Translations under genes and position numbers: made by a program | Part shown: in pieces, positions 21,857 through 64,000 of the stretch | How positions within the stretch are numbered: position 1 is the first letter of the stretch | Layout: every line of letters begins with the position of its first letter | From: Phaseolus vulgaris | Taxonomy: Eukaryota; Streptophyta; Magnoliopsida; Fabales; Fabaceae | Assembly: GCF_000499845.2 (NCBI RefSeq) | Contig: NC_023750.2 | Span: 9,259,845-9,323,844, forward strand | Direction of reading: 5' to 3' | Length of the DNA stretch: 64,000 nucleotides | The notes under the pieces: generated by a model | What the model was told of the DNA's origin: nothing | Databases searched by the model: none | What the model saw: only the letters and a program-made list of their open reading frames with translations

Positions 21857-22289
21857 TGTTGGAGATCCCACATCGACTAGAGATAAGGACATTTCATAAT
21901 ATATAAATGGGTGCAGACCTCAACCTCATGAGCCGGTTTTATGGGGTTGAGTTAGGCTTAAAGTCCACTTTGTAACATGGTATCAGAGCCATTTCGAGCC
22001 TATCCTAGCGAGTATTTGTTGGGCCTATCGTGCCACCCGCTATCGAGCCGCTATCGGACCACCCAAAATATATAGTCCCACGCACGAGCTTCTATCTATC
22101 ACTCTCGGCGTGAGGGGGGTGTGTTGGAGATCCCACATCGACTAGAGATAAGGACATTTCATAATATATAAATGGGTGCAGACCTCAACCCTATGAGCCG
22201 GTTTTATGGGGTTGAGTTAGGCTTAAAGTCTGCACCCATTTATATATTATGAAATGTCCTTATCTCTAGTCGATGTGGGATCTCCAACA
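21857..22289 (+). mobile_element. TRIM with mirror-ended 3' terminus, TSD ATTCA
   Basis: The 5' LTR is 21857-21977 (121 bp, TGTTGG..GTAACA). The primer site TGGTATCAGAGC at 21978-21989 matches initiator-Met tRNA. An internal region of about 130 bp and the purine tract GAGGGGGGTG (22112-22121) follow. The 3' LTR (22122-22230) stops 12 bp short of its end. It is joined to 59 bp (22231-22289) that are the exact reverse complement of LTR bases 1-59. Both outer ends are therefore U3 ends, and ATTCA flanks the unit at 21852-21856 and 22290-22294. The junction shares GTC with both partners. Confidence 0.93.
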
Positions 22290-22294
22290 ATTCA

Positions 22295-23035
22295 TTCTCT
22301 CAAATTTTCACGTATCTCCTCCGGAAAGTGAGAAAATTAGTTTCAAGTAACTCATGATAGGTACTTTAGGTTTTGTTAGTTTGTCACAAGAAAACGCACA
22401 ATTAAAGTGAACCAAAAGTCTAAAAAAAAAAGTCGATGCTAACTAAGAATACTTCCCATTCCAAAAAATATACACAAAAAAGCATAAACACTAATAATTT
22501 AGCATCAACATTTTGTAGGACACGTAAAACGAAACTGAAAGGTACAAAAAACGATTAATGAATTAAGCCTCAGTGAAGAAATAAAATATGAAGACGAGTG
22601 AGCTAATTTACTCTTAGAATCTTAACAAAAGCAACTAATGAAGAGTTAATAAGCTCCGATGAAGAAAAGGTAAACCACGATGGAAGAGAAAACTGTGACT
22701 GTATATATAGAATAAATATCATAAAAGCCAAAACCAAGTTAGCATTAGAAATGGTAGAAAAAATGAAACCAAGAAGAAAAGTAGTTTAATAGTAGTAGTA
22801 AAATTGTAGGATAAGATTTTGCGAAATCCTTAAACAAGCATAATTATAAGACAGAAAAACAACTATCATGGATGTATTTAAAGAAAATTACACAGTTAAA
22901 ACAGTAGAAAAATAAATTCATATCAAATTAAGCCAATAATATATTCTGTTAATTTCAAAATAATGAATTACTGAACACATAAAAGAATATAAATAACTTC
23001 ATAGGATCAATTCAAAAATAAATATAAAACATATT
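22295..23035. other. AT-rich spacer, no gene
   Basis: No convincing frame, RNA gene or repeat boundary. It contains the second copy of GTTTCAAGTAACTCATGATAGGTA (about 22341). Confidence 0.5.
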
Positions 23036-23040
23036 CAAAA

Positions 23041-23576
23041 TGTATTGGTCGGTACCAGACGAGTTAGTCTCGGCCTCGATAACCGATCGTTCGAGTCAAA
23101 GAATATATCAAGGCATCCAATAGATGATAGTAATGACATTTACAATGGAACTTAATGATTCATAATTCGTATCCCAAAATATGCGGAAAATATCTCTGAT
23201 AGATCATCTAAATATTGATTAACTAAAAGATGTTACATATATTCCTATATACCAATGTACCTCCCAATTAATTAGGGACACGATGCATATCATTCAATAA
23301 CTAATATCCGACTCATCATGGCAAGAGTCCATAATCAATACTATAAATAAAACTCTTTGCAAAGGTATGAGGTACGTTTTTACCAATTACAAAAATACAC
23401 TTTTTACACCGAGTACTAACTTGATCATCAAAGTACCTTTTTCAGGTCACCCCCGACCGAACATCAGCATTAAAGGAAGGAGACTCGAAGGAAGGAATTA
23501 GAGGATCACCGACACTTCAGCAATTGTACATCCAATCTCAGGTACTATCTAGGTCCTCTTTTCCTATACAGGTACA
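23041..23576 (+). repeat. 5' LTR of Tat element A (536 bp)
   Basis: It starts TGTATTGGTCGG and ends CTATACAGGTACA. It matches 31800-32315, 33096-33611 and the fragment at 55355-55696. Confidence 0.9.
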
Positions 23577-23578
23577 AT

Positions 23579-23596
23579 TGGCGCCCACCGTGGGGT
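23579..23596 (+). promoter_or_regulatory. Primer-binding site TGGCGCCCACCGTGGGGT
   Basis: It lies 2 bp after the LTR. This form of site is typical of Tat-lineage gypsy elements. The second Tat element has a degraded copy (TGGCACCCATCGTGGTGC at about 33614). Confidence 0.85.
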
Positions 23597-23639
23597 CGAG
23601 GTAGTAGTCAATTTCAGCAACAAGAATAGACCAACAACA

Positions 23640-25692: not shown

Positions 25693-25697
25693 GCAGG

Positions 25698-35147: not shown

Positions 35148-35152
35148 CGGTT

Positions 35153-36156
35153 TGATGAGAATCAAATAAAGGAGGCTTTTATTAATGGAGGAAGAGGACA
35201 TCCACCCTCACATTTGAAGTTCTTCCTTCTAGTCTTCTCAAAATTAAAAGAAGACATAAAATAAAGATGAGGCCCAAGCCCAAAGCCCAAGCCCAAGCCC
35301 AAGAAGGCCAAAGCCCAAAGAGCCCAAGTCCATCCCATGAGGGGCAAGGCCAAGCTTTGAAATACTCTTGTATAGTTTTAGGAGGTGTGGTTATTAAATA
35401 AAGGTGTGTGAAAATGTAAAATAAAGTCACATTGTCCATGTGACTTAGGAGAGTGGTGTAGGTGTAGTTTTTGGGAGGTGTCATAGTAGAAAAAGGTCAC
35501 ACCTCCCATGTGACTTGTTTTTGGTGGGAATTTCAAATGAGTTTATTTGAAATTTCCCACCTATTTTTCAGCACCTTAGGCTATAAATAGAGGTGCTTCC
35601 TTTGTAAAATTCAGATTTGAATTCATCTAAAGAAACTATACTCAAAATTGGAGTGAGCATTTGGAGAGCTTTTGAGCTTCTACTCTAGTCTTATCTTGAA
35701 GGACCATGGTTTCCTCAAGTGGCGGCTTGCACACTCATCTAGGAGCATCCATACTTCTAGTGGCGTGATCATCCAACCATTCTTCCATCTTCATGAGCAT
35801 TCTCTTCTCCTTCCTTTCTTCTTCTTCAATTTGTTCATGTTGCCTTGTGTTTTGAGTTGTTGTTTCGGTTCTTCTAATTTTCCAGCACCTACATTCTGTT
35901 TGTTTCTTAATTCTGTTCGGTACATTTGATTTTAATTCAATTCTGTTCGGTCTCTTCTTTTTAAATTCCTTTGTTGATTCAATTTGACAATACTTGGTTC
36001 ATCCAAATGAGTTTGGGATTTGGTACTTGTTATTGGTGAGTTCTTGACTTAGAACCATGATCCAACTTCTAAGAAAGTGCCTCTATATTTTCCAGCTCAA
36101 GGTGATTCCTCAAAGTGTCAAGAATCTTGTTCTATGTGGCTATTGGAATCACATCA
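35153..36156 (+). repeat. Left LTR (1004 bp) of the mirror-ended element
   Basis: It ends ATTGGAATCACATCA and carries CTATAAATAGAGG (about 35581), a good TATA box, and a GCCCAA-rich stretch (35271-35330) in U3. Identical 85- and 100-codon frames here and in the right LTR are LTR sequence, not genes. Confidence 0.93.
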
Positions 36157-37666
36157 TGTGGTATCATGAGTCTTAGGTTCATTCTTGTTTAATTGTTGAG
36201 TTGTGTGCACTTTAATTTCAAGAGCTCTTTAATTTCTTGCAATTTAAGTTTCTGTTTTAGAATTTTATTTGAGTATTCTTGCTGTTTTTTTTTTCTTTTG
36301 CTCCAAGTGTTTGAGGAAAGGTTTATGGCACTCATAATTCTTATGAGTATGGTTGCTCTTTTGGAATGGCATTATCCTTCCTAGAGTTTACCTTAAGCTT
36401 CCTTTCACTTGTTACAATTTGTGTTGTGTCTTTTAATTTTTGAATCATGTCAAGGTTTGTCTTAGTCATGTTATTCCATATATGTCATTACTTCTAGTAG
36501 TACTTTTATTGTTTTGATTGTTTCTTGCTTTGGTGTCATATAATTTTCTGAATTGATGTTGATCCTTTGTGCATTTTCTTTTTAGAATTGAGTTCATACT
36601 TGTATTCTAGACCTATACAAGTTCCAATACATCATTTTCTATTATGTCTTTGCTAGTTCATCATCCTGTTTTTTATTCCTATTAGGATTCCTCTGTTTCT
36701 GAAAAAAAGTGCTTACTGTTTTTCCTTATTGCAACTGATTTACGTACTGTAAAATTCTGAAATTCTGGATTTGAGATATTCAAAGTGTTAGAAAAGAATA
36801 GAAAAAAGAATCATTCAAAAATATGAAGTACACAAAAAATGATAAATAAAATAAAAAAAGTGTACATTCCTGCCGAAAAAAATACGGTAATCTGGCAGTG
36901 ATTTTAAAAAATTTATTTCTCTCAATTGGCTTACTGTTTTCAATTGATTCCAGTGCCATTTTTGAGTTAACATCTTGAAGTTTCTGTGGTATAAATTTCA
37001 TAATCCAGTTCGCTCTACAACGTTCCAGTTAAATCAGTGAATATCAAGCACAGTTTGCATTTTAAAAAAAAAAAATTCCAGTAGCTAATTTTTTGTTTTC
37101 TTCATCTACTCTAGTGCTTTTCCTTAAGTATTCTTTTGTGTGCCTACTTTTCTCATTGAGTTCTTTATTTTCTTGATTGTCTTTCATTCTTACTCTTTGA
37201 GTTTGTCTTACATATAGTATTCCTTTTGCAATTACCTTTCCTTGCTTATACCTTTTCTTGTGTGTCTTTATTGTTTCATTGGTTTTGTGGTGGTTGCTTT
37301 TGAGATTGGTGTGCTTGCTTTGACATATTTCATTTGAGGATTCCAAGGCCTCAAGATCAGATTGGTGCAAGAACATTATTTCTTTGAGAGTGATCTCTTT
37401 TTTCAGCCTCATTTCACTTCGGCAGTTTCATTGCCAAGCTCACTGTTTTTGCTAATTTTGTTTCTTAACTTGTTTGCTGTTTTTGTGTGTTTGCTGTTTT
37501 TTTATTTGCAAAATGGCTGGCTATTCAAGTGGTGCATCTTACAAACAGCATTCTCCTTCCAAAGCTTCAGTCCTTGGTGAAGAAGAACATAGAAGAAGGA
37601 GGCATCACCATCATTATCATGAAGAGAGCTATAACCGTGACCAAAGATATCACCAAGTGTTCAACA
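36157..37666 (+). other. Primer site and long leader of the mirror-ended element
   Basis: TGTGGTATCATGAGTC directly follows the LTR and resembles the initiator-Met primer site TGGTATCAGAGC. Then comes a T-rich leader of about 1.35 kb with no credible frame. Gag starts at 37513. Confidence 0.75.
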
Positions 37667-37674
37667 TGATGTGA
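37513..37674 (+). pseudogene. Truncated gag N-terminus at the inverted-LTR junction
   Basis: The ATG opens MAGYSSGASYKQHSPSKAS, followed by an Arg/His-rich stretch (RRRRHHHHYHEESYNRDQRYHQ). After about 50 codons the frame runs into the inverted LTR at 37667 and stops at 37672. Position after the leader and the upstream primer site argue for gag. No capsid motif is reached, so family assignment rests on position. Confidence 0.55.
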
Positions 37675-38670
37675 TTCCAATAGCCACATAGAACAAGATT
37701 CTTGACACTTTGAGGAATCACCTTGAGCTGGAAAATATAGAGGCACTTTCTTAGAAGTTGGATCATGGTTCTAAGTCAAGAACTCACCAATAACAAGTAC
37801 CAAATCCCAAACTCATTTGGATGAACCAAGTATTGTCAAATCGAATCAACAAAGGAATTTAAAAAGAAGAGACCGAACAGAATTGAATTAAAATCAAATG
37901 TACCGAACAGAATTAAGAAACAAACAGAATGTAGGTGCTGGAAAATTAGAAGAACCGAAACAACAACTCAAAACACAAGGCAACATGAACAAATTGAAGA
38001 AGAAGAAAGGAAGGAGAAGAGAATGCTCATGAAGATGGAAGAATGGTTGGATGATCACGCCACTAGAAGTATGGATGCTCCTAGATGAGTGTGCAAGCCG
38101 CCACTTGAGGAAACCATGGTCCTTCAAGATAAGACTAGAGTAGAAGCTCAAAAGCTCTCCAAATGCTCACTCCAATTTTGAGTATAGTTTCTTTAGATGA
38201 ATTCAAATCTGAATTTTACAAAGGAAGCACCTCTATTTATAGCCTAAGGTGCTGAAAAATAGGTGGGAAATTTCAAATAAACTCATTTGAAATTCCCACC
38301 AAAAACAAGTCACATGGGAGGTGTGACCTTTTTCTACTATGACACCTCCCAAAAACTACACCTACACCACTCTCCTAAGTCACATGGACAATGTGACTTT
38401 ATTTTACATTTTCACACACCTTTATTTAATAACCACACCTCCTAAAACTATACAAGAGTATTTCAAAGCTTGGCCTTGCCCCTCATGGGATGGACTTGGG
38501 CTCTTTGGGCTTTGGCCTTCTTGGGCTTGGGCTTGGGCTTTGGGCTTGGGCCTCATCTTTATTTTATGTCTTCTTTTAATTTTGAGAAGACTAGAAGGAA
38601 GAACTTCAAATGTGAGGGTGGATGTCCTCTTCCTCCATTAATAAAAGCCTCCTTTATTTGATTCTCATCA
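37667..38670 (-). repeat. Right LTR (1004 bp), inverted
   Basis: It is the reverse complement of 35153-36156, complete at both tips: TGATGTGATTCC at the gag junction and GATTCTCATCA at the outer end. Confidence 0.93.
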
Positions 38671-38674
38671 CGGT

Positions 38675-39741
38675 TGCTAGAATTAGAGGTCTTAAATAAG
38701 ATGAGGGTGAATTGTTTATGAAAGATTTTCGCAAGTATTGAAGGTAGAATGAAAATTTATGAAGAATCAATCAATTGAAAATTATGTTCAACCAAAAAAA
38801 AATTGTTTTTAAGTTTGATTCCAAAAAATCAACCAATTATTTTCATGAAACAACCGGTTGCTTATACCAACAGATTTGAAAAAAAATGTTAAAACATTTT
38901 AATGAGTGTAGGGATAGAGTGCTACATCCTTTCACTCTTAACCAATAGCAACATCTAATCCTCAACTAACCACTGGGAATTCACTATGTAATCAAACCTA
39001 GATTACAAAACACACACCAAAAGTGATGATATTGAACCCCTTAAGAACACACACTAGTTTTGGCAAACCACTCAGTTTCCAGAAACACCTTCTGAAACTG
39101 CACCACACTAGAACACACAAAAATACAATGTTCAAGGAAGAAGAGGAACAAAATACGGCTAGGTAAATCAAAGCTTAAAGTTTAGAAGTACAAAACTCAA
39201 TCCTATTCCACACTTGAAATGGTCCAAAAGCTTTTTGAAATTTTGAATATTGTTTTTTATTCATCTTTCTTTCTTAGTTAGTGCAAAGGAGCATATAACC
39301 ATCTTTATATGCCTCAATCAAATGGTCAAAGCAGTTAAATCAAAAACCAAAAGTTGTTGGAATCATTTAAAACAAATTAAAACCTTTTAACAAAATTTTG
39401 TTAAGGTTTTAAAAAAAAAAACAACCAGATGATTTATCAAAACAACAGGTTGAATCTGTTTGACAGCAAAGCCAAAGCAAAGCTAAGCTTTTCCAAGCCA
39501 TTTTAAAAACCACTAAGTTTCAAACAACAAGTTGAATCGACATTTCAACAGGTTGAAATTTTACACCATTCTAGGAAACTCATCTTTTCAAAAAGGTAAA
39601 GATTCAATTAACCTTGGATCATCTTAAGTATTCTTCAAGCAGGGTCTTCATGCTTTCAAACAAATAAACAACACACACACATCAGTAGGGTCTTCAAGCT
39701 TTCCACTTGGATTTAGAGAGATCAAAGCACCTTGTTCAACA
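38675..39741 (-). mobile_element. Copia solo LTR, minus orientation (about 1067 bp)
   Basis: On the plus strand it reads TGCTAGAATTAGAGG..CTTGTTCAACA. On the minus strand it begins TGTTGAACAAGGTGC and carries CAACCGGTTG motifs (about 38850). Target duplication: TCGGT (35147-35151, now pushed away by the mirror-ended insertion) and CCGGT (39742-39746), one mismatch. Element A keeps the uninterrupted site near 26070-26090. Confidence 0.85.
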
Positions 39742-40230
39742 CCGGTAACCACCAAGAGTCGACCGAGGATATCGTCAATCACCTTCACATATGACAATTT
39801 CACTACCACAGACCCAACCCGTGACGACCCCATGGTCATCACCATGGATATAGATAAATTTTCCATCACCAAGGTTTTGGTGGATTAGGGCAGCTCGGTC
39901 GATATTCTATACTAGAAGACTTTCAAAACAACGAGAAAATAAAAAATTCAGCCCTGCAACAAACATATTGTTGGATTTTTCGCGAAGCGGGTGGACATAA
40001 TAGGATTCATCGATTTGTACACTACGTTCAGGGAAGAGGGGTATCTTTGCAAGACAATAAAAATCAGGTATCTTATTGTAAACGGAAATACCTCTTATAA
40101 TATATTGCTTGGACAGTCGCCCATAAATCGCCTGCAAGCAATACTATCCATTCCCCACCTCACAATGAAGTTCCCATCGGGACCCGGTGGCATCGTAACA
40201 ATCCTTGTCGATTAAAAGATAGCTCCTGAA
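39742..40230 (+). pseudogene. Tat aspartic protease, element C
   Basis: It aligns with element A 26095-26530. Two-frame fragments show PMVITMDIDKFSITKVLVD, a stop where DQG/DSG is expected, then GSSVDILY, IGFIDLYTTFREEGYLCKTIKIRYLIVNGNTSYNILLGQSPIN. The last segment is a typical retropepsin C-terminus, NILLG.P. Inactive through the stop in the catalytic loop. Confidence 0.8.
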
Positions 40231-44702: not shown

Positions 44703-44830
44703 CCCGGGTTCGGGATTTTAATCATGATGGGGTTATTTTTTTTGCTTTTTACCAAAATGGGGTCCATTTAAAAAAAAATTACAAATTTAGGCAAGTCGTG
44801 TCAATTCGGCACGACTTCATATGCACAAAT

Positions 44831-45498
44831 TGATGGCATTCCTTTGAGCTCTTCTTTGATTTTGATGATGATGGGTGCGGAAGCTTAGTGGAGGAGAGTG
44901 GAACAAGGCCTTCCTAGGAAGTGTGGGTGCCCTGAAGGTGCATGAGGAGTAGTGAGGGTTGGAGTGGTTCGGCCATCTCCATTTGAGGGTGAAGATTGAA
45001 GACTAACAACCTAATTCTAGAGAGAATTTGGCAAGGGAGTAATTTGAATGGCACTTGGGCAGCATTTCATTACTCAAAATAGTCTTGCAAATACATGAGT
45101 CAAGCCCTCTTATCTATAGTGTTTAGAGGGCTGGAAATTCAAAAGAAAGTGGAGGGAAATTCAAATGAGAAGCATTTGAATTTGGAGCCAATTCCTAGTC
45201 ACAAGGAAAGTGTGACTTGGTTTCTTTTTTTTGGCACCTCCTAAATCTACACCTACACCTTCTTTTTATGTCTCATGGAAGGTGTGGCTTAGCTTTATAC
45301 ATTTGCACCTCTTATATTTATATCTACGCCTCCCTTTATGTTCTACTAAAAATACTCAAAAGTAATTACAAAAGAAAGACATTCAATGATGTTTAGTTGG
45401 CCCATATCTTCTATTTGTTGGGCTTAAGCTGAAGCTTGAACTTGTATTTGGGCTTGGGCTTGGGCTTTTTCTATCATGGGCTTGGGCCTCTTCCATCA
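44831..45498 (-). repeat. Left LTR (668 bp), minus orientation
   Basis: On the minus strand it begins TGATGGAAGAGGCCCAAGCCC at 45498, after the purine tract AAGAAGGAGGGGA, and ends GGAATGCCATCA at 44831. U3 is rich in GCCCAA repeats, unlike the right LTR. Confidence 0.88.
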
Positions 45499-46704
45499 TC
45501 CCCTCCTTCTTGAGAGGATCTGTCCTCAGATCTACAAGTTTGATCTCGAACAACAGCCTTATTCTTATTTTGAAAACTAGGTTCGTCCTCCAGGATCAAA
45601 TGTCCATCTCTGTGAGTCATCAAACAAATCAAATGAGTTAGTTGGAGCAATTGTATAAAAATCATCTTTAGGAAGTTGCCATTCCTTTCGTTTTTCTTTT
45701 GTTTTTGGCAACTTCTCATAATATTTCTCTATTTGTTGTTGTACTTGTTCTTGAATCCTCTCATGCATTTTTTTATCAAATTCTGCTTTTGTAACTCCTT
45801 CCTTATGCACAAAGGTATGTGTATTAGGAATGGGCAATAAATCTAAAGGAATAAGAGGATCAAACTCATATACAACTTCAAATGAAGAAATGTTAGTAGT
45901 CTTGTGAACTACTTTATAATTATCCCTAGAGTTGTGATTGTCTCTCATGATTACTCTAAGCATAGTAGAAAGAATGATAATTTCAACTTCATTTTGGCCA
46001 TTTGTTTGAGGATGATAAGAAATTGAAAAGTTCAACTTAGTTCCAAGTTTTTCCAAAAGAATCCTCAAAAAATGGTTTTCACATTTTGGTTCTTTATCTA
46101 ACACTATGCTTGGAGATAAACCATAAAGTCTTATCACTTCTCTAAAGAAGAGCTTACCCATAACCATAAAATTAGATTCAAACCCTTTTGTTGTCCTATG
46201 AAGCTCTAATATAAAATCTAGGCTTATATCTTCCCATGGAACATTTGCAAAAGGTGAAGGATTATAGAGTTCATGAGACATTGCCTTAATTTTAGTTTTA
46301 AAACAAGAAATGCATCTAGGGTAATGTCTTTGAACATCGTTTCTCATGGGTGACCAAAAGAATTTTCTTTTCAAAAGCTCTAGAATGTTATCAACTCTAA
46401 ATTGGCCCATGAGTTCTCCTTCATGAAAAATTTCTCTTTTATTTGTGAAGGTAGTCTCGTTGGTACAACCATTGATCATGGAAATTTTAACACTTTGCAA
46501 TGGTTGTCTCAATAAGACATAACAAGTTTCTTTAGGCACTACCTCACATAAAAATTTATCTTTGTAGATGCCTATAGATAACTTGACCTTCAGTTGTTGG
46601 TGATATCTTAGTACATATTCAAAATAATTTACTACCTTTTTGTCTAGGCAAGGGCAGCAACAAACACATACTAAATACACCACACACATTGGAAGGCCCA
46701 ACAA
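45499..46704 (-). pseudogene. Defective gag-pol of the left partner: protease joined to integrase
   Basis: A single 375-residue frame (46704-45577) begins with a piece of protease (LSIGIYKDKFLCEVVPKETCYVLLRQPLQ) and passes directly into the integrase zinc region (HEGELMGQFRVDNILELLKRKFFWSPMRNDVQRHYPRCISCFKTK). RT and RNase H are therefore deleted in frame. The integrase core keeps WEDISLDFILELHRTT, with the first Asp present. It then lacks about 25 residues (the [12 protein letters not shown] segment), and has VLDKEPKCENHF for the second Asp motif and HPQTNGQNEVE with the Glu. The C-terminus changes frame near 45700. The long intact frame of a deleted gene suggests a defective member copied as such. 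Confidence 0.82.
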
Positions 46705-46744
46705 AGAAGAGACAACAAAGGAAGTGCAAATAGAAAATCAACAA

Positions 46745-47226
46745 AGGGAGTTCCATCTAATTTCTTTGCAACTTAGCTCTTGTTAATTACTTGTTAATTA
46801 CGCAATTAGACGGTGAGTGTATCTTCAAGGGCTCCAAGTGTCCAAGAAGCCTCACCTAGGGCCAACTAGTTTAAAACTATCTTGCTTAGCTTTTGTTAAT
46901 TGTTTTAATTACATCAATTGCCTTAGTTAGCTACGCTTGTTTTGCTTTGCTTTTGTATTGTTTAAGCTTTGCTAATTTTGCTTGGGTTGTAGATAACTTG
47001 CATTGTTTCTTGCATTAAAAATTTGATTTCTCCAACTTCATTGTGTTTTAAGTGGTTTACCAAGAGAAAGATTTGTGTGAAGATCTTGAGGGATAGTTTT
47101 TGGCTAAGGCAAGACTTCGTATTTAAGTAATCCATTGTGACTCACCTCTCTTACCTGGAAAACTACCTTCTTTAACTTCCCTCATTTTTCTCAAAGTAAA
47201 ACATTTCTAGACACAAAGTTCTAGTC
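46745..47226 (+). other. Leader of the right-hand chromovirus
   Basis: T-rich, uncoded sequence upstream of gag. The 5' LTR and primer site expected before it are absent. The head-to-head join with the left partner lies at about 46710-46745. Confidence 0.65.
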
Positions 47227-50200
47227 ATGTCTTCTCATTCTTCAAAGTCTATGGAAAGTGATGTGAAATCCATCAAATCCCTTTTGAAACAACTTGCCAA
47301 GGATGTTCAATTAATTTGCTATAGACAATTGGAGAACGAGTCTAAAATCAATGAACTAACTAGAGCAAAGGAAGAGAAATCACAAAATTCCAAAAAAACT
47401 CATACTCATGCATCACATTCCAAAGATAATGAGTCTCTAGGGGAGGAAAGCCTTAGAATCAATGATTACTACCAACCACCCCCTAGAAAATATAGGCAAA
47501 AGGAGCAAGAGGGCCCAAGGGAGGTTAGGGTAGACCTACCTCATTTCCATGGTAAGGAAAACGTAGAAATTTACCTAGATTGGGAAATGAAAGTAGAGCA
47601 ACTCTTTGCTTGCCATAGGGTGAGTGAAGAACGCAAGGTACCCTTAGCCACCCTTAGCTTCCAAAGGAATGCCATGTATTGGTGGACCTCTTTCGAAAGA
47701 GAAAGATGTCTTCATAGGGAACCTCCCATTGAGTATTGGAATGACCTTAGGGGGGCCCTAAGACGTTGACACATACCCTCATACTACCATAGGGAGTTAA
47801 TGGACAAGCTCCAAAGACTCCAACAAAAGAATATGAGTGTAGAGGAGTATAGGCAGAAAATGGAGCTTTATATGATGAGAGCATCTATTAGAGAATAGGA
47901 GGACACCACCATAGCAAGATTCCTTAGTGGCCTCTCTCTTGAGATAAGAGATAGGGTAGAACTCTTTCCCTACCAAGACTTGAATGACTTGGTTCAACTT
48001 TGCATTGAAGTTGAACAACAAAATTTGCGCAAAACTTCAAGTCAAAGGGTGGGTTCATACTCTAGCTTTTATCCCAAGAAAGACTATAAGAGGGAGGGTA
48101 GCACATCTAGAGAAAAACCAAAGGAAACTACCAAGCCCTTAGCAAAAGATGCCTCCACCCCACCCATCCGAACTAGGGACGTTAAGTGCTTTAAGTGCTA
48201 TGGAAGAGGGCATGTGCAAGCACAATGCCCAAACCAAAGGACTTTGTTTTTAAAAGGTGTAGACGAATACACTAGTGGTGAGGATGAGCCAAATGAGAGA
48301 GAGGAAGGGGGAGAGGATGAGAAGGTAGCTCCATTAGAGGGAGAATTGTTAATGATTAGGAGAACCCTCAACAATCAACCTAGCACATCCATGGAAACAC
48401 AAAGGGAGAACATCTTTCATACAAGATGTAATGTTTTAGAAAATATATGTTCCCTCCTTGTGGATAGTGGATCTAGTTGCAATTGTTGTAGTGCTAGAAT
48501 GGTTGATAAGCTTAATCTACAAGTAGTTCCTCACCCAAAACCTTACAAATTACAATGGATTAATGAAAATGGGGAACTAAGTGTAGATAAGCAAGTGGAA
48601 ATCAAGTTTTCCATAGGGAACTACAAAGACAAGGTTTTATGTGATGTAGTACCTATGGAAGCTTGCCACATCTTATTAGGGAGACCATGGCAATTTGACA
48701 AGAAAACCTTGCATGATGGTCTCACTAACGAGATTTCCTTCACCCATAAGCATAGGAAGTTTGTACTTAGTCCTTTACCACACTCTCAAGTGGTAAAAGA
48801 CCAAATACAAATGAAACATAAGAGTGATGAGGAAAACAAAAAAAAAAGAGTGCTAGAAAAAGAGAAAATCCTTAGGGATAGGAAGGCGTGGGAGAAGAGT
48901 GTTCCTTCCCACAAGGTTGCTCAACAAGAAAAGCCTTTTGAAAACATCTTGGAAAATTTGCTTCTTGTTGAACAACCTAGCCTAATCTTTTGTAAGGGAA
49001 CACTTGCATGCACTGCCACAAGTAATGAACCCATGAGTCTACCTCCTAAAGTGGAAAATCTTTTAAGTGAATTTGAAGATATATTCTCTAATGAGGGACC
49101 CATTGGACTCCCTCCCATTAGAGGTATAGAACATCAAATTGACTTCATTCTGGGGGCAAGCCTACCAAATAGGCCCGCTTATAGAACTAACCCCGAGGAA
49201 ACCAAGGAGATAGAGTCACAAGTTCAAGACTTGTTGGAGAAGGGTTGGGTTCAAAATAGCCTAAGCCCTTGTGTTGTACCTGTCTTGTTGGTGCCAAAAA
49301 AAGATGGAAAATGGCGTATGTGTTGTGATTGTAGAGCAATCAACAACATCACCATCAAGTATAGACATCCAATCCCAAGGCTTGATGACATGCTTGATGA
49401 GTTACATGGGTCAACCATATTTTCTAAAATTGACCTTAAAAGTGGATATCACCAAATTCGAATCAAAGAGGGTGATGAATGGAAAACCGTTTTTAAGACC
49501 AAGTTTGGATTATATGAGTGGTTGATAATGCCCTTTGGACTCACTAATGCCCCTAGTACATTCATGAGGCTCATGAATCATACCTTGAGGGATTGTATAG
49601 GTAAATACGTAGTAGTTTACTTTTATGATATCTTAGTGTATAGCAAAACCCTAGAAGACCATCTAAGTCACCTTAGGGAAGTTCTTCTAGTGCTTAGGAA
49701 AAATAGTTTATTTGCCAATAGTGATAAGTGCACCTTTTGTGTAGATAGTGTAGTTTTTCTAGGTTTCATAGTTAACAAAAGGGGGGTGCATGTTGACCCC
49801 GAGAAGATCAAAGCCTTCCAAGAGTGGCCAACTCCGCAAAATGTAAGTGATGTAAGAAGTTTCCATGGGTTTGCTAGCTTTTATAGAAGGTTTGTACCTA
49901 ATTTTTCAAGCTTAGTTTCCCCTTTAAATGAACTTGTCAAAAAATATGTTGCATTTTGTTGGAGTGATAAGCATGAGCAAGCCTTCCAAAGGCTAAAGGC
50001 TCAACTCACCAATGCACCAATTCAAGATCTCCCAAATTTTTCTAAAACCTTTGAGATAGAGTGTGATGCATCGGGAGTGGGCATAGGTGCGGTATTGTTG
50101 CAAGGTGGACACCCCATTGCATATTTTAGCGAAAAACTCCATGGTGCCACCCTCAACTACCCCACCTATGACAAAGAGCTTTATGCTCTTGTGCGAGCCC

Positions 50201-51957
50201 TAAAGACTTGGGAACACTACCTTGTGTCCAAAGAATTTGCAATCCATAGTGATCACGAGTCTTTAAAGTATTTAAAGGGTCAGCACAAGCTCAACAAGAG
50301 ACATGCTAAATGGATGGAGTTTCTTGAACAATTTCCTTATGTAATCAAATACAAGAAAGGAAGCACCAACATAGTGGCCGATGCTCTCTCAAGGCGACAT
50401 GTACTCTTTTCAAAATTAGGTGCCCATATTCTTGGATTTGATCACATAAGAGAGCTTTATCAAGAGGATCAAGAATTTTCATCCATCTATGCCCAATGTC
50501 AACATAGGGCACAAGGAGGTTACTATGTGGCCGAGGGATATCTTTTAAAAGAAGGAAAACTTTGCATTCTCCAAGGCACACATAGGAAGCTCCTTGTCAA
50601 GGAATCACATGAAGGGGGACTCATGGGCCATTTTGGAGTTGATAAGACTCTAGATCTTTTGAAAGAAAAATTTTATTGGCCACACATGAGAAAGGATGTC
50701 CAAAGACATTTCTCTAGATGCATATCATGTTTAAAAGCAAAGTCTAGAACAATGCCTCATGGACTCTACACCCCTTTGCCAATTGCAAATGCTCCTTGGG
50801 AAGACATTAGCATGGACTTCATTTTAGGACTCCCTAGGACTACAAGAGGCCATGACTCTATCTTTGTGGTAGTGGACCGTTTTAGCAAAATGACCCATTT
50901 TATTCCTTGCCACAAGGTAGATGATGCTCAAAATATTTCTAGACTCTTCTTTAGAGAAGTGGTGAGACTCCATGGTAAACCTAGAAGTATAGTATCCGAT
51001 AGAAATCCCAAGTTCATAAGCCACTTTTGGAAAACTCTTTGGGGCAAACTTGGAACAAGACTACAATTTTCAACTTCTTGTCATCCTCAAACGGATGGCC
51101 AAACCGAAGTAGTCAATAGATCTCTTGGAACTATGCTTAGGGCTATCATGAAGGGAAACCACAAATCTTGGGATGAGTACCTTCCCCACATTGAGTTTGA
51201 TTACAATAGAGTAGTCCACAAGACTACTAATGCTTCTCCTTTTGAAGTTGTATATGGATTTAATCCTCTCACACCTATGGATTTGTTACCTCTTCCTAAT
51301 CCACAAGAATTTGTGCATAAGGAAGGAGTAATCAAAGCCGATTTTGTGAAGAAAATGCATGAGAAGATTAAAATCCAAATACAACAACAAAACGAAAAGT
51401 ATGCAAAATACAACAATAAACGGAAGAAAGAAATAATTTTTGTGGAAGGAGACTTAGTTTGGCTTCACCTTCGAAAAGACCGATTTCCAACTCAAAGGAA
51501 GTCCAAACTAAGTCCCCGAGGTGATGGACCCTTCCAAGTCCTCAAGAGAGTCAACAACAATGCATACAAATTGGATCTACCTCTTGAATATGGAGTACAT
51601 GATACTTTTAAAGTAATTGATCTATCTCCATTTGTAGGTACCAATGAAGACGAGGACGACATGGATTTGAGGACAAATCCTTTCCAAGGGAGAGGGGATG
51701 ATGGAATAGGGCCAAGCTCAACACCCCATGAAAGACAAGAGCCAAATCTAGACTGTCTAGAGCCAAGAGAAGAGCTTCTAGCACAAGGTGGAGAGTGTCT
51801 AGCACAAGGTGGAGAGCGTCTAGAAGGAAGGGGAGAGCGTCTAGGACCTATTACTAGGTCCATGACCAAGCTACGGATAGGAGACATGGGCCAAGCTACG
51901 GATGGGAGAGAAAGCAACTTGTATATGCTACATGAAGGCCCATTAAGGGTAGCTTAG
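47227..51957 (+). pseudogene. Chromovirus gag-pol in one frame, nearly intact (2 nonsense codons, RT active-site change)
   Basis: One reading frame of 1577 codons runs from ATG 47227 to the stop at 51955. It is broken only by TGA at 47767 and TAG at about 47899, both in gag. Domains in order: capsid (LPHFHGKENVEIYLDWEMK, WWTSFERER), zinc knuckle [14 protein letters not shown] (48187-48228), protease [12 protein letters not shown] (about 48457), RT ([27 protein letters not shown]), RNase H ([37 protein letters not shown]), integrase zinc region ([24 protein letters not shown]), core ([43 protein letters not shown]), then [23 protein letters not shown]'s YxDD reads YFYD at 49618-49629: the first Asp is Tyr. 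No ordinary chromodomain follows. Lineage likely CRM-like (inferred). Confidence 0.9.
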
Positions 51958-52417
51958 TATTAAGTGTAGTGTAAATAGCATAAACTTGATTCCATGAGCC
52001 TTGACCTAGATTTGGCAAAGATATGGTCACGTTCAAGGATTCTCCACTAGGTCGGCCATGTCCTCCATGTGATGTAATTTGCATTTCATTTTGATTAGCA
52101 TTAGGGTTGCATTATGATCCTCCTTAGCCTATAAAAGGAAGAGCCAACACCTTGTATTGGCAAGACTATTTTGAGTAATGAAATGCTGCCCAAGTGCCAT
52201 TCAAATTACTCCCTTGCCAAATTCTCTCTAGAATTAGGTTTTTAGTCTTCAATCTTCACCCTCAAATGGAGATGGCCGAACCACTCCAACCCTCACTACT
52301 CCTCATGCACCTTCAAGGCACCCACATTTCCTAGGGAGGCCTTGTTCCACTGTCCTCCACTAAGCTTCCGCATCCATCATCATCAAAATCAAAGAAGAGC
52401 TCATAGGAATGACATCA
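51699..52417 (+). repeat. Right LTR (719 bp); its U3 also encodes the gag-pol C-terminus
   Basis: It begins TGATGGAATAGGG right after the purine tract CCAAGGGAGAGGGGA (51684-51698) and ends GAATGACATCA. The gag-pol frame runs 86 codons into it (to 51957). It includes short tandem repeats, CTAGCACAAGGTGGAGAG-like, at about 51778-51845 encoding [25 protein letters not shown]-like CCTATAAAAGG lies at about 52130. Confidence 0.88.
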
Positions 52418-53332
52418 CAAATCGTCCCAATTAGACACGACTCTGTCATGTCATAATGAAGTCGTGCCAACTTCGCACGACTTCTACCACGTCATTTTTT
52501 TTTAATTTTATTGTTTATATATTGGGCAGTAAGTTATGTAATGTTAAAAATTAATTTGATACATAACTTTCTAAGAGTGTTAGTTTTAAGGAACAAAAAA
52601 TTTGATAATCGTGTATGGATCATGTCCGACGCCATTAAATATCAAGATATCAAAAAAATTGCATACATGAGACATTAAATATCAAAATATACTTTTTGGC
52701 TAGTGGGAAACCATGTCCAGCGGCAATGTCCTCAGGAGTTAATGGCTCAAAGTTTGAATAAGCTGATTATCCAAACATGATGCATACACGATTATCCAAT
52801 TTTTTGTTCCTTAAAACTAACACTCTTAAAAAATTATGTATCAAATTAATTTTTAACATTAGATAACTTACTACCCAATATATAAACAATAAAATTTAAA
52901 AAAAAAATATGTGGCAGAAGTCGTGCCAATTTAGTATGACAGGGCAGAAGTCGTGCCAAGTTGGCACGACTTCAGTATAACATGACAGAGTCGTGTCTAA
53001 TTGGAACAATTTGTGCATATGAAGTCGTGCCGAATTGGCACGACTTGCCTAAATTTGTAATTTTTTTTAAACGGACCCCATTTTGGTAAAAAGCAAAAAA
53101 AATAACCCCATCATGGTGAAAAACCCCCCGGGTTCAGGACGGTATTAATAAAATATGCAAATCTTGCAATTACAAGGGCTCAAACACCTCCTCTAGGGAG
53201 GGTTCGACTTCAATATTGTCCCCCTGGCCTTCTACATTATTTGCATTGTCCTCTTCGTCTTCATCGACCGATATGAATTTTCCATCTATGATATCTTTAT
53301 TCATATCATATCGGTCGTCTTCTAGAGGAACA

Positions 53333-53823
53333 TGATAGAACAGTGGGAATAACAGTTAACTATTCTATCATTAACTATGAATTAACTAAGAGCTACAGAA
53401 TACTAAACTAGATTTAACTATCAACTTTTCTTCCTTCTTTCTATTTCCAAAATATCTCACTTATATAGGTGAGAATTAGGTTAATATATTTATTGGGCTT
53501 ACATGCTATTGGGCCTCCTAACATTACTATCTGCTCCAAAAAAACACTTTGTCCTCAAAGTGTGACCTTAGTATTAGTTGGACTGGTGTACGTGAGGTGT
53601 ATTGGAGCTGGCACGGGGTGCAGAAATAGTTTGGGGGTGCAGGAATAGTTTGGGCCGCGAAGGGTGAATTGGGCTTGGTATTGGGTGTTGGGTTATTAGG
53701 GTTGGTAGGAGGAATTGCTGGTGCGTTAGGGTTTTGGGAGAGGGGGTGCAGCTTCAGGAGTAGGGTTTGGAGTGGGTGGATGGCGCCGTTTGGGATTTAG
53801 GAGGGCAGGGCGCCGCTGCTGAA

Positions 53824-53854
<31 letters not shown>

Positions 53855-54591
53855 TAAACCATCTTTGGTGCTCTAATGGATACGAAGGAGGAAGGTGTTG
53901 GAGGTGGCATTGAGCGGTGTGGCGGCGGCGATTTGGGCAGTGTAATTTCAGGTGGGCGGCACGGCTAGAGTGCTTGTCGTTGAACGAAGTGGAGCTCGGT
54001 GAGCGACATTTGGGCTGCAGACGCTGTTGCGGCGTGTGTCTTCGTGCGCGTGGATGTTGGCGGCATTGGGTGGCGCGGCGGTTTGAGCGTGAGCGGTGTT
54101 GTGGCGTCTGACCTGGTATGTAACGTGGTGTACGCGGAGGCTTGCGATGCTGGGCGGCACGACGGTTGAGGCGCGGGCGCTGTTGCGGCGTGTGTCCTGG
54201 CGTGGAGGCTGGCGGCACTGAGCGGTGCAGAGGGGGAACTGTTGCGGCGCTGGTGGAGTTGTGCTAGTGTTGGAGTCGCTGGTGGGGATTTTTAGGGTTT
54301 CTTCCATAGCAGATAAGCACTTTAGAATGGAGTTTAGTATTTGATTTAGGTCTTTTGTTTGTGTTTGAGGAGGCATGGAGAACGTGAATGAAAGCACCAT
54401 TCATAGAACAGTGGGAATAACAGTTAACTATTCTATCATTAACTATGAATTAACTAAGAGCTACATAATACTAAACTAGATTTAACTATCAACTTTTCTT
54501 CCTTCTTTCTATTTCCAAAATATCTCACTTATATAGGTGAGAATTAGGTTAATATATTTATTAGGCTTACATGCTATTGGGCCTCCTAACA
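53333..54591 (-). mobile_element. Small LTR retroelement (1259 bp, 191-bp LTRs), TSD GAACA
   Basis: Direct repeats 53333-53523 and 54401-54591 (191 bp each) differ at only a few positions I could see. GAACA flanks at 53328-53332 and 54592-54596, and the Tat sequence AGAGGAACACGATGG rejoins across it. On the minus strand the LTR begins TGTTAGGAGGCCC. Inside are an ORF and a 3' segment with GAGGACAAAGTGTTTTTTTGGAGCAGATAG before the LTR, as in larger gypsy elements. It is probably a deletion derivative of one. Confidence 0.9.
53948..54400 (-). CDS. Pro/Arg/Ala/Gln-rich ORF in the small LTR element
   Basis: A 150-codon frame starts directly after the LTR. A more natural start is the ninth codon (ATG at 54376-54374), giving MPPQTQTKDLNQILNSILKCLSAMEETLK, a helical, gag-like N-terminus. 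The rest is low-complexity (Thr/Pro/Gln/Ala/Arg/His) and contains two diverged copies of an ARAHTPQQR-like segment, matching internal repeats in the DNA (TGTTGCGGCGTGTGTC near 54023 and 54181). Local GC content is far above the surroundings. I recognise no domain. It may be a gag remnant followed by repeat-expanded filler. Confidence 0.45.
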   Translation of the reverse strand: MVLSFTFSMPPQTQTKDLNQILNSILKCLSAMEETLKIPTSDSNTSTTPPAPQQFPLCTAQCRQPPRQDTRRNSARASTVVPPSIASLRVHHVTYQVRRHNTAHAQTAAPPNAANIHAHEDTRRNSVCSPNVAHRAPLRSTTSTLAVPPT

Positions 54592-57744: not shown

Positions 57745-58120
57745 CTCTGCCTTGCCAAATTCATAATGTTATCCATGTAATCTTGAACTTTCATCCACAA
57801 CCATGATACGGTTACCGTTTCGGTGGGTGCAAAACTACACCAGCTCAGTAACCCTAAAACCTAATTTGCATTCATTTTAATAAAAAAAATTATTGTAAAT
57901 AATTTTATCATTCATTTCTGTAATATAACAAAAATAATATAAATATATACACAAATTAAATTTGTCAATATTATAATTTAATCAAACTACAAATAAATAT
58001 AAACAAACAAAATTAACAATTACATCAAATTAAATAACAATAATAAGTACGTCATTATCAAATTAATTAACTATAATAACAATAAAAGAGAAAAAAACCG
58101 TAAACATTAAAAATTTCTAT
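57745..58120. other. AT-rich flank, no gene
   Basis: No frame, and no terminal inverted repeat of the Harbinger element could be identified by eye. Confidence 0.45.
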
Positions 58121-60010
58121 TTCCATTCTGTAAAAAGTATATTTTTAAAATAAATAAATCTATTTTAATAAACAATTAAATGTTAAAAAAATAAGAACTA
58201 TCTACATATATTATTAAAAATTCTAATTTCTACTCCAAACTTTTTTTTTTTAATTACTACAACATTTTGTATAATTTTTTAATGATCACATTAATACTTT
58301 ATGTAAAATCTAAAAAATAAACCTAAACATTATAAATTTTTATTTCCATTATGTGAAAATATTAATTTTAATAAAAATTTCTAATTTTTATAAAGAATTA
58401 ACGTACACAAGATAATAACTATCTACATTTGTTATTAAAAAATCAAATTTCTTCTTTCCTGCTTTTTTTAATTACTACAACAATTTGTATAATTTTTTTA
58501 ATTATAACATTAATAATTTATGTCAAATATAAAAAAAAACCTACAAATTACAAATTTTTATTTTCATTCTGTAAAGATATTCCTTCTAAATAAATAAATA
58601 TATTTTTTATAAAGAATTAAATGTTTAAAAAATAATAAATATCTACATTTATTAAAAATTCAAATTTATTCTCTAAACTTTTTCTATTTTTTTAATTACT
58701 ATAACATTTTTTATAATCTTTTTAATTATAAGATTATTAATTTATGTAAAATCTAAAAGAAAAAAACCCTAAACATTAAATATTTCTATTTCAATTCTGT
58801 AAAAATATATTTTTAAAATAAATAAATCTATTTTTTATAAACAATTAAATGTTAAAAAATAAAAACTATATACATATATTATTAAAAATTAAAATTTCTT
58901 CTTTAAACTTTTTTATGTTTTTTTAATTACTAGAACATTTTTTATAATCTTTTTAATTATAAGATTAATAATTTATGTTAAATTTAAAAGAAAAAAACCC
59001 TACACATTAAAAATTTATATTTCCATTCTGTAAAAATATATTTTTAAAACAAATAAATCTATTTTTAATAAATAATTAAATGTTAAAAAAACAAGAACTG
59101 TCTACGTATATTATTAAAAATTCAAATTTCTTCTCTAAACTTTTTCTGTTTTTTTAATTACTAGAACATTTTTTATAATCTTTTTAATTATAAGATTAAT
59201 AATTTATATCAAATCTAAAAGAAAAAAATCCTAAACATTAAAAACTTTATTTCCATTCAGTACAAATATATTTTTAAAATAAATAAATCAATTTTTAATA
59301 AACAATTAAATGTTAAAAGAATAAGAACTATCTACATAGATTATTAAAAATTCTAATTTCTTCTCTAAACTTTTTTTTTTAATTACTACAACATTTTGTA
59401 TAATGCTTTTAATGATAATATTAATACGTTATGTAAAAAAAAAACTAAACATTATAAATTTTTATTTCCATTCTGTGAAAATATTAATTTTAAATAAAAA
59501 ATTCTAATTTTTATAAAGAATTAACACGTACACAAAATAATAACTATCTACATTTATTATTAAAAAATCAAATTTCTTCTCTGCTGCATTTTTTTATTTA
59601 CTATAATGTTTTTAATTATAACATTAATAATTTATGTTAAATATAAAAAGAACCCTAAAAATTACAAATTTTTATTTCCATTATGTAAAGATATCCATTT
59701 TAAATAAATAAATATATTTTTATAAAGAATTAAATATTTAAAAAATAATAACTATCTACATTATTAAAAATTCAAATTTCTTATCTAAACTTTTTCTGCT
59801 TTCTTTAGTTACTACATCATTTATTTTAATTTTTTAATTTATAAGATTAATAATTTATGTAAAATGTAAAAATAAAAACCCTACACGTTACAAATTTCAA
59901 TTTCCATTTTGTAAAAATATTCATTTAAATAAATAAATATTTTTCTTATAAACATTTAAATGTTAAAAAAATAATAACTATCTACACATATTATTTAAAA
60001 TTAAAAAAAA
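58121..60010. repeat. AT-rich tandem array, about 222-bp unit, 9 copies
   Basis: The anchor TTCCATTCTGTAAAAATAT (with variants) recurs at about 58121, 58344, 58563, 58791, 59021, 59251, 59465, 59685 and 59902, a period of 214-230 bp. Within a unit the order is: anchor, AAATAAATAAATCTATTTT, AATTAAATGTTAAAA, AACTATCTACATATATTATT, AAAATTCAAATTTCTTCTCTAAAC, TTTTTAATTACTA.AACATTTT, AAGATTAATAATTTATGT. Copies 1, 2, 3, 4 resemble copies 6, 7, 8, 9 (1111-1130 bp apart), a higher-order repeat. Confidence 0.85.
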
Positions 60011-61056: not shown

Positions 61057-61186
61057 TGGTATCAAAGCTCTTCAAATGAAGAGATATGTTGCGCTTCTCT
61101 CTTATCTTTATTTCCCCTTTTGCTGTTTTTGGTTATCTTTTTTGTTCTCTTTCAAAATCTTCATTGGTTTCAAAATCTCTTAGGCA

Positions 61187-62000
61187 ATGTCTAATAAAAA
61201 CCCTAGTCTTCATAGTCTTAACAGACTATTACATGCAATTTATGTGGTAAATACGATCATACTGAGATTTCCTTCTCGTAATGTTAAAACCTCAAAGTTT
61301 TCTTCTACTAAAAAAGTCTGCACTTTTTGTAATCGCCTTGGCCACACTGTCGACACCTGTTATAAAATGCATGGGTTCCCTCCTAGCTACAAATTCACCA
61401 ATTGGACATCCCAAGCCAATAATATGATTACTACTAACATTTTTTCTGAGTTTTTTCCTAAATAACAGGATGTAAAGAGGATCCTGCCCCTCACACTCAA
61501 ATTAATCAAGTCGGCACCTTCTCTGGGGATTAAATCCCTAATACTGAGCAATCTTCAACAGGTAAGTTTCTCTCTTCACTATATGCTATAAAAGAATCTT
61601 GGATATTGATTCTGGTACCACAGATCATGTTTGCCACAATTTAAGCGTTTTTACTACTTGCACTAAAATTAAACCTGTCTTAAAACTCACACACCAACTT
61701 AAAGGCATTTTAACTTTCACTTCAACTTACTCCATTTTACAGGACACTCTCACCCAAGAGAGGATTGGTAGTTAAAGCCATTGTTGGCTTGTACCTTGTC
61801 ACTACCTTGCCTACTTCTAGTCGTTCTAAACCGCATTGTTTTGCTCCTTTTATTAATTATAATATCACGGACAAAACACTGTGCCACTATAGACTGGAAC
61901 ACCCTTCACTTGAAAGATTACATGTCTTAAGCAAACAATACTCTTTTATCATTGTTGATACTCATCATGTATGTGCACTTGTAGTCGTGCAAAACAGAGA
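61187..62000 (+). pseudogene. copia gag remnant, protease and pre-integrase, third element
   Basis: The ATG at 61187 (MSNKNPSLHSLNRLLHAIY) leads after about 45 codons to the zinc knuckle CTFCNRLGHTVDTCYKMHGFPPSYK (61319-61393). Nearly all of the UBN2 capsid is missing. Protease is represented by DIDSGTTDHVCHNL near 61602-61641 and TFTSTYSILQDTLTQERIG. The pre-integrase domain follows as LCHYRLEHPSLERLHVLS (61881-61934). Frames change near 61465, 61760 and 61965. Confidence 0.78.
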
Positions 62001-62980
62001 AAACTTCCTTTCACTTTAAGTAATATTGTTACCTTTGCTATTTTTTATTTTGTACACTTTGATATTTGGGGACCCTGTTCCATAATTTCTATACAAGGTT
62101 TTCATTATTTCTTTACTATTGTTGATGATTACTCGCATTATACTTGGGTTATTCTGTTGCATAACAAATCTGAAATGCGTCAGCACATCATTAACTTCAC
62201 TGTTTTCGTTCAAAATCATTTCAAAATTAATATCAAAACGATTCGTACTGACAATGGTGTTGAGTTTGCTATGTCAAATTTTTATGCTTCAAAGGGAATT
62301 ATGCATAAAAAAATCTTGTGTTGAAACACCACAACAAAATGGCGTTGTAGAACGTAAACATCAACGCATACTAAATGTAACTCGGACTTTACTTTTTCAA
62401 GCAAATTTTCCTTCTATTTTGTGGGAATTTGATATAAATCATGTTGTTTTCTTAATAAATGTTATTCCTACTCCGTTACTTAATAACATCACTCCTCAGG
62501 AAAAGTTGTTTGGAAAACCGTATGATATTTCATTTTTAAAAGCGTTTGGTTGTCTCTATTATGCTAGTACCATTACTGCACATAGGAAAAAATTATATGA
62601 TAGATCTATCAAAGGTATTTTTCTTGGCTTCCTGCAAAATACAAAAGGTTATATTATCTTAAATTTAAAGTTTAATAGCATAGAGATATCAAGAGATGTA
62701 ATCTTTCATGAAAACCACTTTCCATATAAATTGGACAGTTGTTTGCCTAAGGACCCCAACACTTTATCTCTCCCTATTTCTAACGCATATAATTCTGCTT
62801 TTGATTTATTTTCTGATACTGCACCTCCTGCCGAGCCATGTGCCTCTACTCCTGCACCCAATAATGTCCCTACACCAGCCTCATTATCCTCTGATCTTCC
62901 AGCAAATAGTGCCTCTACTCCTGCATCCAACACTGCACCTCCACCAGCATTATCACTGCTTGCACCTCCAGGAAGCACCT
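61971..62980 (+). pseudogene. copia integrase, third element
   Basis: After the knuckle-like CSRAKQRKLPF, the core reads FVHFDIWGPC (first Asp, about 62060), YFFTIVDDYSHYTWVILL, IRTDNGVEFAM (second Asp, about 62257) and, after a frame break near 62320, VETPQQNGVVERKHQRILNVTRTLLFQ (Glu, about 62349). The C-terminal part is TPQEKLFGKPYDISFLKAFGCLYYAS, KGIFLGFLQNTKGYI and SRDVIFHENHFPY. A Ser/Pro/Ala-rich linker (62820-63010) follows. The catalytic triad is intact, and one frameshift separates the Glu from the two Asp residues. Confidence 0.83.
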
Positions 62981-63159
62981 CACCCCAATTTCAAGAGATC
63001 AGCTCGTCCTCACCGACAACCTGCCTATCTTGTCGATTTCCACACTGCAACCAACACTGTAAGTCGTATATCCTATTCATAATTACTTGTCTTACAATTC
63101 CCTATCTTCCAATTTTAGAAATATTATTTTCTCTATCAACTCTCATCCTGAAACTCGGA

Positions 63160-63742
63160 CCTATAACGAAGCCTCAAAACATGCTTCTTGGCAATCTGCC
63201 ATGCAAGATGAGCTTCAAGCTCTTGCTACTAATAATACTTAGCAACTTACCCCTCTCCCTCCAGGAAAGAAAACCATTGGTTGTAAATGGGTATATAAAA
63301 TCAAATACCATTCTGATGGCACTGTTGAGCACCACAAAGCTAGAGTTGTTGCCAAAGGGTTCACCCAACTTGAAGGACTTGATTTCTTAGACACTTTTGC
63401 ACCCGTTGTTAAACTCACTACCCTCCGCCTTCTCCTTGTTGTTGCCACTACCAAAAATTGGATTGAAAACAACTTGATGTCAATAATTCCTTTCTTCATG
63501 GTGATATTCATGAAGAGGTATACATGACCCCCCACCTGGCTTCTTTCTTCCTTCTCCCCAGCATGTCTGCAAGCTTCAACGGTCTTTGTATGGACTTTGT
63601 CAAGCTGGTACGTCAATGGTACGCCAAGCTTTCTACTTTTCTTTTATCAAATAATTACTCTATTTCTATTATTGATCACTCTCTTTTTCTTAAATATAAT
63701 AAAGATAAACTCACTGTTATTCTTGTTTATGTTGATGATTTG
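63160..63742 (+). pseudogene. copia reverse transcriptase, N-terminal half, third element
   Basis: It starts ASWQSAMQDELQALATNNT with a stop where the usual Trp lies (63240), then [58 protein letters not shown] (63264-63437). Frame changes follow near 63465 and 63600. The fragment ends ILVYVDDL at 63742, exactly where another LTR begins. RNase H is outside the window. Confidence 0.83.
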
Positions 63743-64000
63743 TGTTGAAGATGGGAGCTTTGATGTATCAAATCCACATGAAGTTTGAAGTTGTGTTGCT
63801 ATCTAGGTTTGGGTTTAGATTAGGGTGTTTAGAATCTTTGTAAGATCATTCCTTGAAAGCCTACACAAAGCTTGATTAAATCTATTTTAAACAACTAAGT
63901 GTTTTTCCCATGCAAAGGGAAAAAAACCAGTTGAATTGTCGAGACAATCAGTTGTTTGTCATTTAGCTAGCAATGAGGTTTTGGAACTGTTTTTTGAATT
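63743..64000 (+). repeat. Start of a copia LTR inserted in the RT, runs off the window
   Basis: TGTTGAAGATGGGAGCTTTG begins right after YVDDL. The sequence resembles the U3 of the minus-oriented copia solo LTR at 38675-39741 and has CAGTTGAATTG..CAGTTGTTTG motifs. The preceding ATTTG (63738-63742) is the expected left target copy, to be confirmed beyond the window. Confidence 0.78.

Follow-up and report, generated by a model that had tools for sequence, protein, structure and literature searches.

Mirror-ended LTR insertions in the window

The window, a 64,000-nucleotide stretch of the Phaseolus vulgaris genome (contig NC_023750.2, positions 9,259,845 to 9,323,844), contains three long terminal repeat (LTR) insertions, here called E1, E2 and E3, whose two outer ends are of the same type and lie in inverted orientation (Table 1). 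That these mirror-ended insertions are a genuine observation is well supported. All three (3/3) have TG at the left and CA at the right boundary with an exact 5-bp direct repeat outside, and their end types (U3/U3 twice, U5/U5 once), assigned from the positions of the primer binding site (PBS), the polypurine tract (PPT), gag and pol, agree with the initial annotation, as do the perfect duplications ATTCA, CGGTT and CAAAT. In E1 and E3, registers sliding into the termini also yield matches of 6-7 bp. None of the three pairs a U3 with a U5 outer end, as direct-repeat LTRs do; E1 additionally retains a direct LTR pair, the second copy of which is cut. LTR hallmarks lie inside each of them (PBS and PPT in E1, a PBS-like site and the start of gag in E2, PPTs and gag-pol in E3), and a terminal inverted repeat DNA transposon was rejected because PBS, PPT, gag or pol are found within the elements.

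The inverted ends match closely, being identical over the outer 62 nt in E1, at 1006 of 1007 positions of the arms in E2 and at 256 of 265 positions of the terminal arms in E3. Palindromes are artefact-prone and the case rests on an assembled sequence, so that an assembly or foldback sequencing artefact has to be considered. Nevertheless, a foldback would have inverted the flanks too, whereas the flanks observed are unlike each other and bear matched duplications. The sides of E3 diverge over their whole length and the arms of E2 by one base, and we regard an artefact as the least probable of all the explanations weighed.

Chance duplications were likewise rejected. The expected frequency of a random match between TG- and CA-anchored 5-mers is 0.0015 window-wide and 0.0030, 0.0019 and 0.0022 near E1, E2 and E3, that is, only about 0.002-0.003 per locus. 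We also scanned all TG..CA pairs of the window for mirror pairs without supplying the positions of the elements (at least 22 of 30 mirror bases matching, an exact 8-base seed, a span of 100-15000, low-complexity starts excluded). An exact duplication accompanied 3 of the 146 pairs returned, which are the outermost boundaries of E1, E2 and E3, and none of the remaining 143 (0/143); in a control with shifted flanks, 11 of 2920 tests matched. The 146 pairs are not independent: different registers of the E2 arms account for 72 of them, those of the E3 arms for 46 and those of the foldback host of E3 for 14, the remainder being 7 from E1 and a neighbouring LTR and 7 elsewhere.

Table 1. Coordinates of the mirror-ended insertions E1-E3, their components and the host of E3.
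Feature	Position	Strand	Remark
E1	21857-22289		Outer ends U3/U3; flanks ATTCA
E1 left target duplication	21852-21856		ATTCA
E1 TRIM LTR1	21857-21977	+	121 bp; outer end U3 (TGTTGG)
E1 primer binding site	21978-21989	+	TGGTATCAGAGC
E1 polypurine tract	22112-22121	+	GAGGGGGGTG
E1 LTR2	22122-22230	+	End missing (cut 12 nt short)
E1 inverted U3	22228-22289	-	62 nt; second outer U3 end
E1 right target duplication	22290-22294		ATTCA
E2	35153-38670		Outer ends U3/U3; flanks CGGTT
E2 left target duplication	35148-35152		CGGTT
E2 left LTR	35153-36156	+	1004 bp; outer end U3
E2 PBS-like site	36159-36170	+	TGGTATCATGAG
E2 leader	36171-37512	+	~1.3 kb
E2 gag codons 1-51	37513-37665	+	98% identical to P0122
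E2 inverted LTR	37667-38670	-	Full length; U5 abuts gag; outer end U3
E2 right target duplication	38671-38675		CGGTT; X2 starts at its last base (38675)
E3	44831-52417		Outer ends U5/U5; flanks CAAAT
E3 left target duplication	44826-44830		CAAAT
E3 LTR_a	44831-45498	-	Outer end U5; R-U5 ~44831-45095
E3 part a, degenerate element	45577-46650	-	Pre-RT fragment adjoining integrase
E3 a/b tail-to-tail junction	46640-46660		Placement approximate
E3 part b, Ty3/gypsy gag and pol	47200-51957	+
E3 PPT before LTR_b	51688-51698
E3 LTR_b	51699-52417	+	Outer end U5
E3 right target duplication	52418-52422		CAAAT
Foldback host of E3	44712-53126		9-bp duplication CCCGGGTTC at 44703-44711 and 53127-53135

Anatomy of E1, E2 and E3

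E1 is a terminal-repeat retrotransposon in miniature (TRIM) with a PBS that we take to be of the initiator-Met tRNA type. At its inner junction, the trinucleotide GTC (22228-22230) is common to LTR2 and the inverted U3. A pattern search with the TRIM LTR gave 0 matches in viral contigs and 0 in genome contigs. The family is also represented ~0.8 kb upstream, at 21064-21187, by an ordinary solo LTR whose duplication is ATTAC.

The internal part of E2 consists of a gypsy leader, separated from the left LTR by a PBS-like site behind a TG spacer, and the start of gag, which ends after codon 51. A 264-residue relative, P0122, continues with VFN-IAC into a Retrotrans_gag domain where the gag of E2 stops, and translation of the 3' part of the E2 leader recovers much of the extension that P0122 has upstream; no relatives of P0122 were confirmed in viral contigs. 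Because P0122 continues past codon 51, we conclude that the sequence of E2 is interrupted within gag and switches there to the LTR/PBS boundary. Provided that intact copies encode the asparagine by AAC, a stretch of 3-4 nt at the breakpoint could be derived from either side. An earlier idea that the right arm stops exactly at an unprocessed cDNA (complementary DNA) end was dropped, as the LTR is 1004 bp long and the 3 extra bases can be derived from gag. The right arm was also rejected as an independent solo LTR, its flanks (CAACA and CGGTT) being unlike.

This junction bears on autointegration, in which a cDNA end would attack its own interior and invert part of the molecule before the product integrates. 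The U5 end of E2 abuts an internal site, which such an inversion would predict, and E2 is compatible with an LTR end joined to its own internal site within the 3-4-nt ambiguity. Autointegration of LTR elements into circles has been described (available parts of PMC9694575 and PMC12786077). However, the products in those accounts are circular and lack two free ends, the E1 junction uses no LTR end and E3 unites two different elements, so that neither of these two is compatible with such a joint, and autointegration appears unlikely as an origin of the three insertions.

The left edge of an older insertion, X2, falls within the target of E2. The final T of the left CGGTT matches the base with which X2 begins, which fits an arrival of E2 after X2. 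X2 itself is a TG..CA insertion at ~38675-39742 with a near-duplication (TCGGT/CCGGT, one mismatch), and lies within a gypsy copy.

E3 is made of two partners. Its left part, on the minus strand, comprises LTR_a, a PPT and part a, and its right part, on the plus strand, a leader, gag, pol, a PPT and LTR_b. Part b is one frame in two open stretches (47200-47769 and 47899-51957) with in-frame stops between them. Its pol matches the Pfam domains of reverse transcriptase (RT), RNase H and integrase and a Tf2-1-like SH3 domain; the label 'chromovirus' given in the initial annotation is not borne out, as no chromodomain match was obtained in Pfam. The best-scoring matches to this pol are proteins of Lolium multiflorum, and the most alike among the matches listed (120 of 6179) are one protein from a metagenome and one from Cajanus cajan, at 77% each; no relatives were confirmed in viral contigs.

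In part a, the integrase zinc-binding domain was the only Pfam match, with none to RT or RNase H. Proteins of Phaseolus vulgaris and Cajanus are among the matches to part a, and the same join of a pre-RT fragment to integrase occurs in P0129 (Phaseolus vulgaris, 64% identical) and in the metagenome proteins P0124, P0128 and P0157, two of which (P0124 and P0128) have an RT match. Since relatives with the same join exist, part a belongs to an existing lineage of non-autonomous appearance. By eye, the gag start of P0129 resembles that of part b, the autonomous partner of E3.

The two LTRs of E3 are alike in R-U5 and unlike upstream of it. U3_a and U3_b align with a score of 37 (50 shuffles: mean 24, maximum 32), whereas 9 of 265 positions differ in R-U5, and the transition, ~15-25 nt downstream of a TATA-like box, coincides roughly with the expected start of R. 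U3_a aligns with the LTR of E2 with a score of 175, and the three families are therefore not all unrelated, contrary to what had first been stated. No LTR was found at the inner junction near 46650; in 46400-47300, R-U5 has only a 10-base chance match. We initially took the shared R-U5 as proof that both partners came from one particle, and dropped this argument because, with the gag start of P0129 like that of part b, it may be a family feature. If both pairs of arms began identical, E2, with 1 of 1007 positions differing, would be much younger than E3, and the two events would lie apart in time.

E3 lies in a foldback element, presumably Mutator-like to judge from the length of its 9-bp duplication. 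When E3 is removed and one CAAAT retained, the flanks align without gaps at the site with the right foldback arm; since this other arm of the host shows the target uninterrupted, E3 is one insertion. The empty site bears on a further origin, in which ordinary insertions nested in one another and were later altered by deletion, inversion or gene conversion, as a region so rich in repeated and nested elements might suggest. Exchange between LTRs within an insertion leaves the ends that touch the flanks unaltered, and therefore cannot produce two U3 or two U5 ends around one duplication. Nesting would further require three coincidences of ~0.002-0.003 each, and the single LTR on the right of E2 is not itself flanked by a duplication (CAACA on one side, CGGTT on the other); the target of E3 is otherwise intact. 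The flank argument and the empty site thus uphold the earlier judgement against nesting and recombination, an origin that we consider very improbable.

Origin of the mirror-ended insertions

We favour, with a probability of roughly 0.78, the reading that E1, E2 and E3 each arose when integrase inserted, in a single event, an aberrant cDNA with two LTR ends of the same type. Integration of aberrant cDNAs had been put forward from the start, and given the anatomy of the insertions it stands as the best account of the duplications, the empty site of E3, the cut gag of E2 and the R-U5 breakpoint of E3. In all three, the added inverted end starts at an internal break and extends to one of the termini set by reverse transcription.

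The process can be reconstructed in four steps. Reverse transcription would begin in the particle, for E3 with the RNAs of two partner elements. The nascent strand would then jump to a strand of the same polarity (plus to plus in E1 and E2, minus to minus in E3) or, alternatively, two partial cDNAs would be joined at their unfinished inner ends. Copying to the 5' end of the strand would next reach U3 on a plus strand, at the PPT cut, or U5 on a minus strand, at the tRNA junction, and so yield two correct TG/CA ends of one type. Finally, integrase would pair the like ends and insert the molecule with the usual 5-bp stagger. The break would lie within LTR2 at GTC in E1, and in E2 would lead from gag to the LTR/PBS boundary, with 3-4 nt shared.

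A possible, if less probable, version of this scheme dispenses with the template switch: two cDNAs of one particle would be paired via their like ends and the host would later join their unfinished inner ends. It is a variant of the explanation favoured here, which leaves the choice open. The right LTR is the first end completed in reverse transcription, and E3, with two partners, a complete right LTR in each and no LTR at the inner junction, fits this variant best; for E3, joining the inner ends of two co-packaged cDNAs would explain as much as strand switching. In contrast, the right part of E2 is a full LTR with at most 3 nt extra, and that of E1 is 62 nt of U3, each of which would demand odd additional breaks.

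Integrase itself need not be unusual. The initial annotation had proposed a class of integrases, or a host lineage, that tolerates two like ends, an idea that has found no support as a novelty: a special tolerant integrase is unnecessary because assays of Rous sarcoma virus (RSV) integrase use U3-type ends alone, according to the available part of PMC7955051. One special integrase class is also disfavoured, as E1-E3 differ in element type and arm divergence. The best explanation is a variant of aberrant reverse transcription with normal integration, rather than a new integrase class.

Several points weigh against the insertion of single aberrant cDNAs. The E3 junction is placed only approximately, and switching and end joining are indistinguishable there; the R-U5 common to both partners may be a lasting trait of their families that predates the E3 event. 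By a simple estimate, overlaps of at least 3 nt are expected by chance in ~6% of junctions. E2 is flanked by sequence from two older elements, and the edge of X2 falls within its target; only the nested order speaks for E2 as a single insertion, and for E1 no paralogous empty site was found. Finally, the evidence comes from one assembled sequence of one accession.

A broader proposal, which we hold tentatively and at somewhat less than even odds, is that LTR retrotransposition in plants regularly yields mirror-ended forms that have been overlooked: cDNAs with two like ends arise by same-polarity switching, plant integrases accept U3/U3 and U5/U5 pairs, and tools that look for direct LTRs are blind to the outcome. 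If common, such insertions would be an in vivo record of plant integrases joining like ends, would reveal same-polarity template switching, and would create hairpin-forming loci that could feed silencing. Their signature, inverted LTR ends with an exact 5-bp duplication, is easily scanned for in any genome.

Other features of the window

Inspection by hand identified two ordinary insertions that carry duplications, the solo LTR at 21064-21187 and a small element at 53333-54591; three mirror forms against two clear ordinary ones do not constitute a rate. The small element has direct LTRs of ~190 bp (98.9% identical over 189 nt) and the duplication GAACA, and its second LTR lacks the TG start. 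An automatic scan for ordinary LTR pairs, the design of which is unsuited to solo LTRs, missed this element and returned five pairs, three of them within a very AT-rich tandem array at 58091-60006 (period 231, 8.6 copies; GC 0.138 at 58-60 kb). Further downstream, 61057-63390 is perhaps a copia-type element, with an open frame that has a retroviral SH3-like domain; the PBS-like TGGTATCAAAGC at 61057 is a near-match of a kind expected by chance.

Comparison with known systems

DIRS-type elements use a tyrosine recombinase and are not known to make a target duplication. Like E1-E3, they have inverted terminal repeats; in contrast, E1-E3 bear 5-bp duplications together with PBS and PPT features, and the pol of E3 has integrase domains. 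Among the titles and abstract openings returned by searches of an open-licence library we found no mirror-ended LTR insertion, which is weak evidence of absence, as subscription journals lie mostly outside it.

Closer parallels come from LTR retrotransposons. The template-switch complexes of Angela, Squiq and Opie unite two elements through a common middle LTR and carry 5-bp duplications; 2 were counted in ~7 Mb of Triticeae sequence, 1 in rice, 1 in maize and 0 in Arabidopsis (Sabot and Schulman, 2007, PMC1950507). They resemble the present insertions as fused products of abnormal switching between co-packaged RNAs with one 5-bp duplication. However, they have a middle LTR and similar outer LTRs in one orientation, which E1-E3 do not, and no inverted case is given there (PMC1950507). 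For intra-family recombinants of Onsen, most of the recombination within LTRs is reported to be consistent with the first template switch in the available text (Sanchez et al., 2017, PMC5668417), an exchange in R like that at the R-U5 boundary of E3; unlike E1-E3, the products are described as recombinant elements, and the word 'inverted' is absent from that portion of the text.

Aberrant copies also reach the genome in Arabidopsis mutants, where truncated EVD and ATCOPIA21 insertions, two of them with clear duplications, and chimeric EVD copies are described in the accessible part of PMC10462705. In this they are like E1-E3; unlike them, the truncated insertions all keep two LTRs, and 'inverted' does not appear in that part. 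On the side of integration, RSV intasomes and concerted integration assays were built with gain-of-function U3 oligonucleotides (PMC7955051, sections available). Two identical U3-type ends are thus accepted in that system, but as short oligonucleotides in vitro, whereas E1, E2 and E3 are natural insertions.

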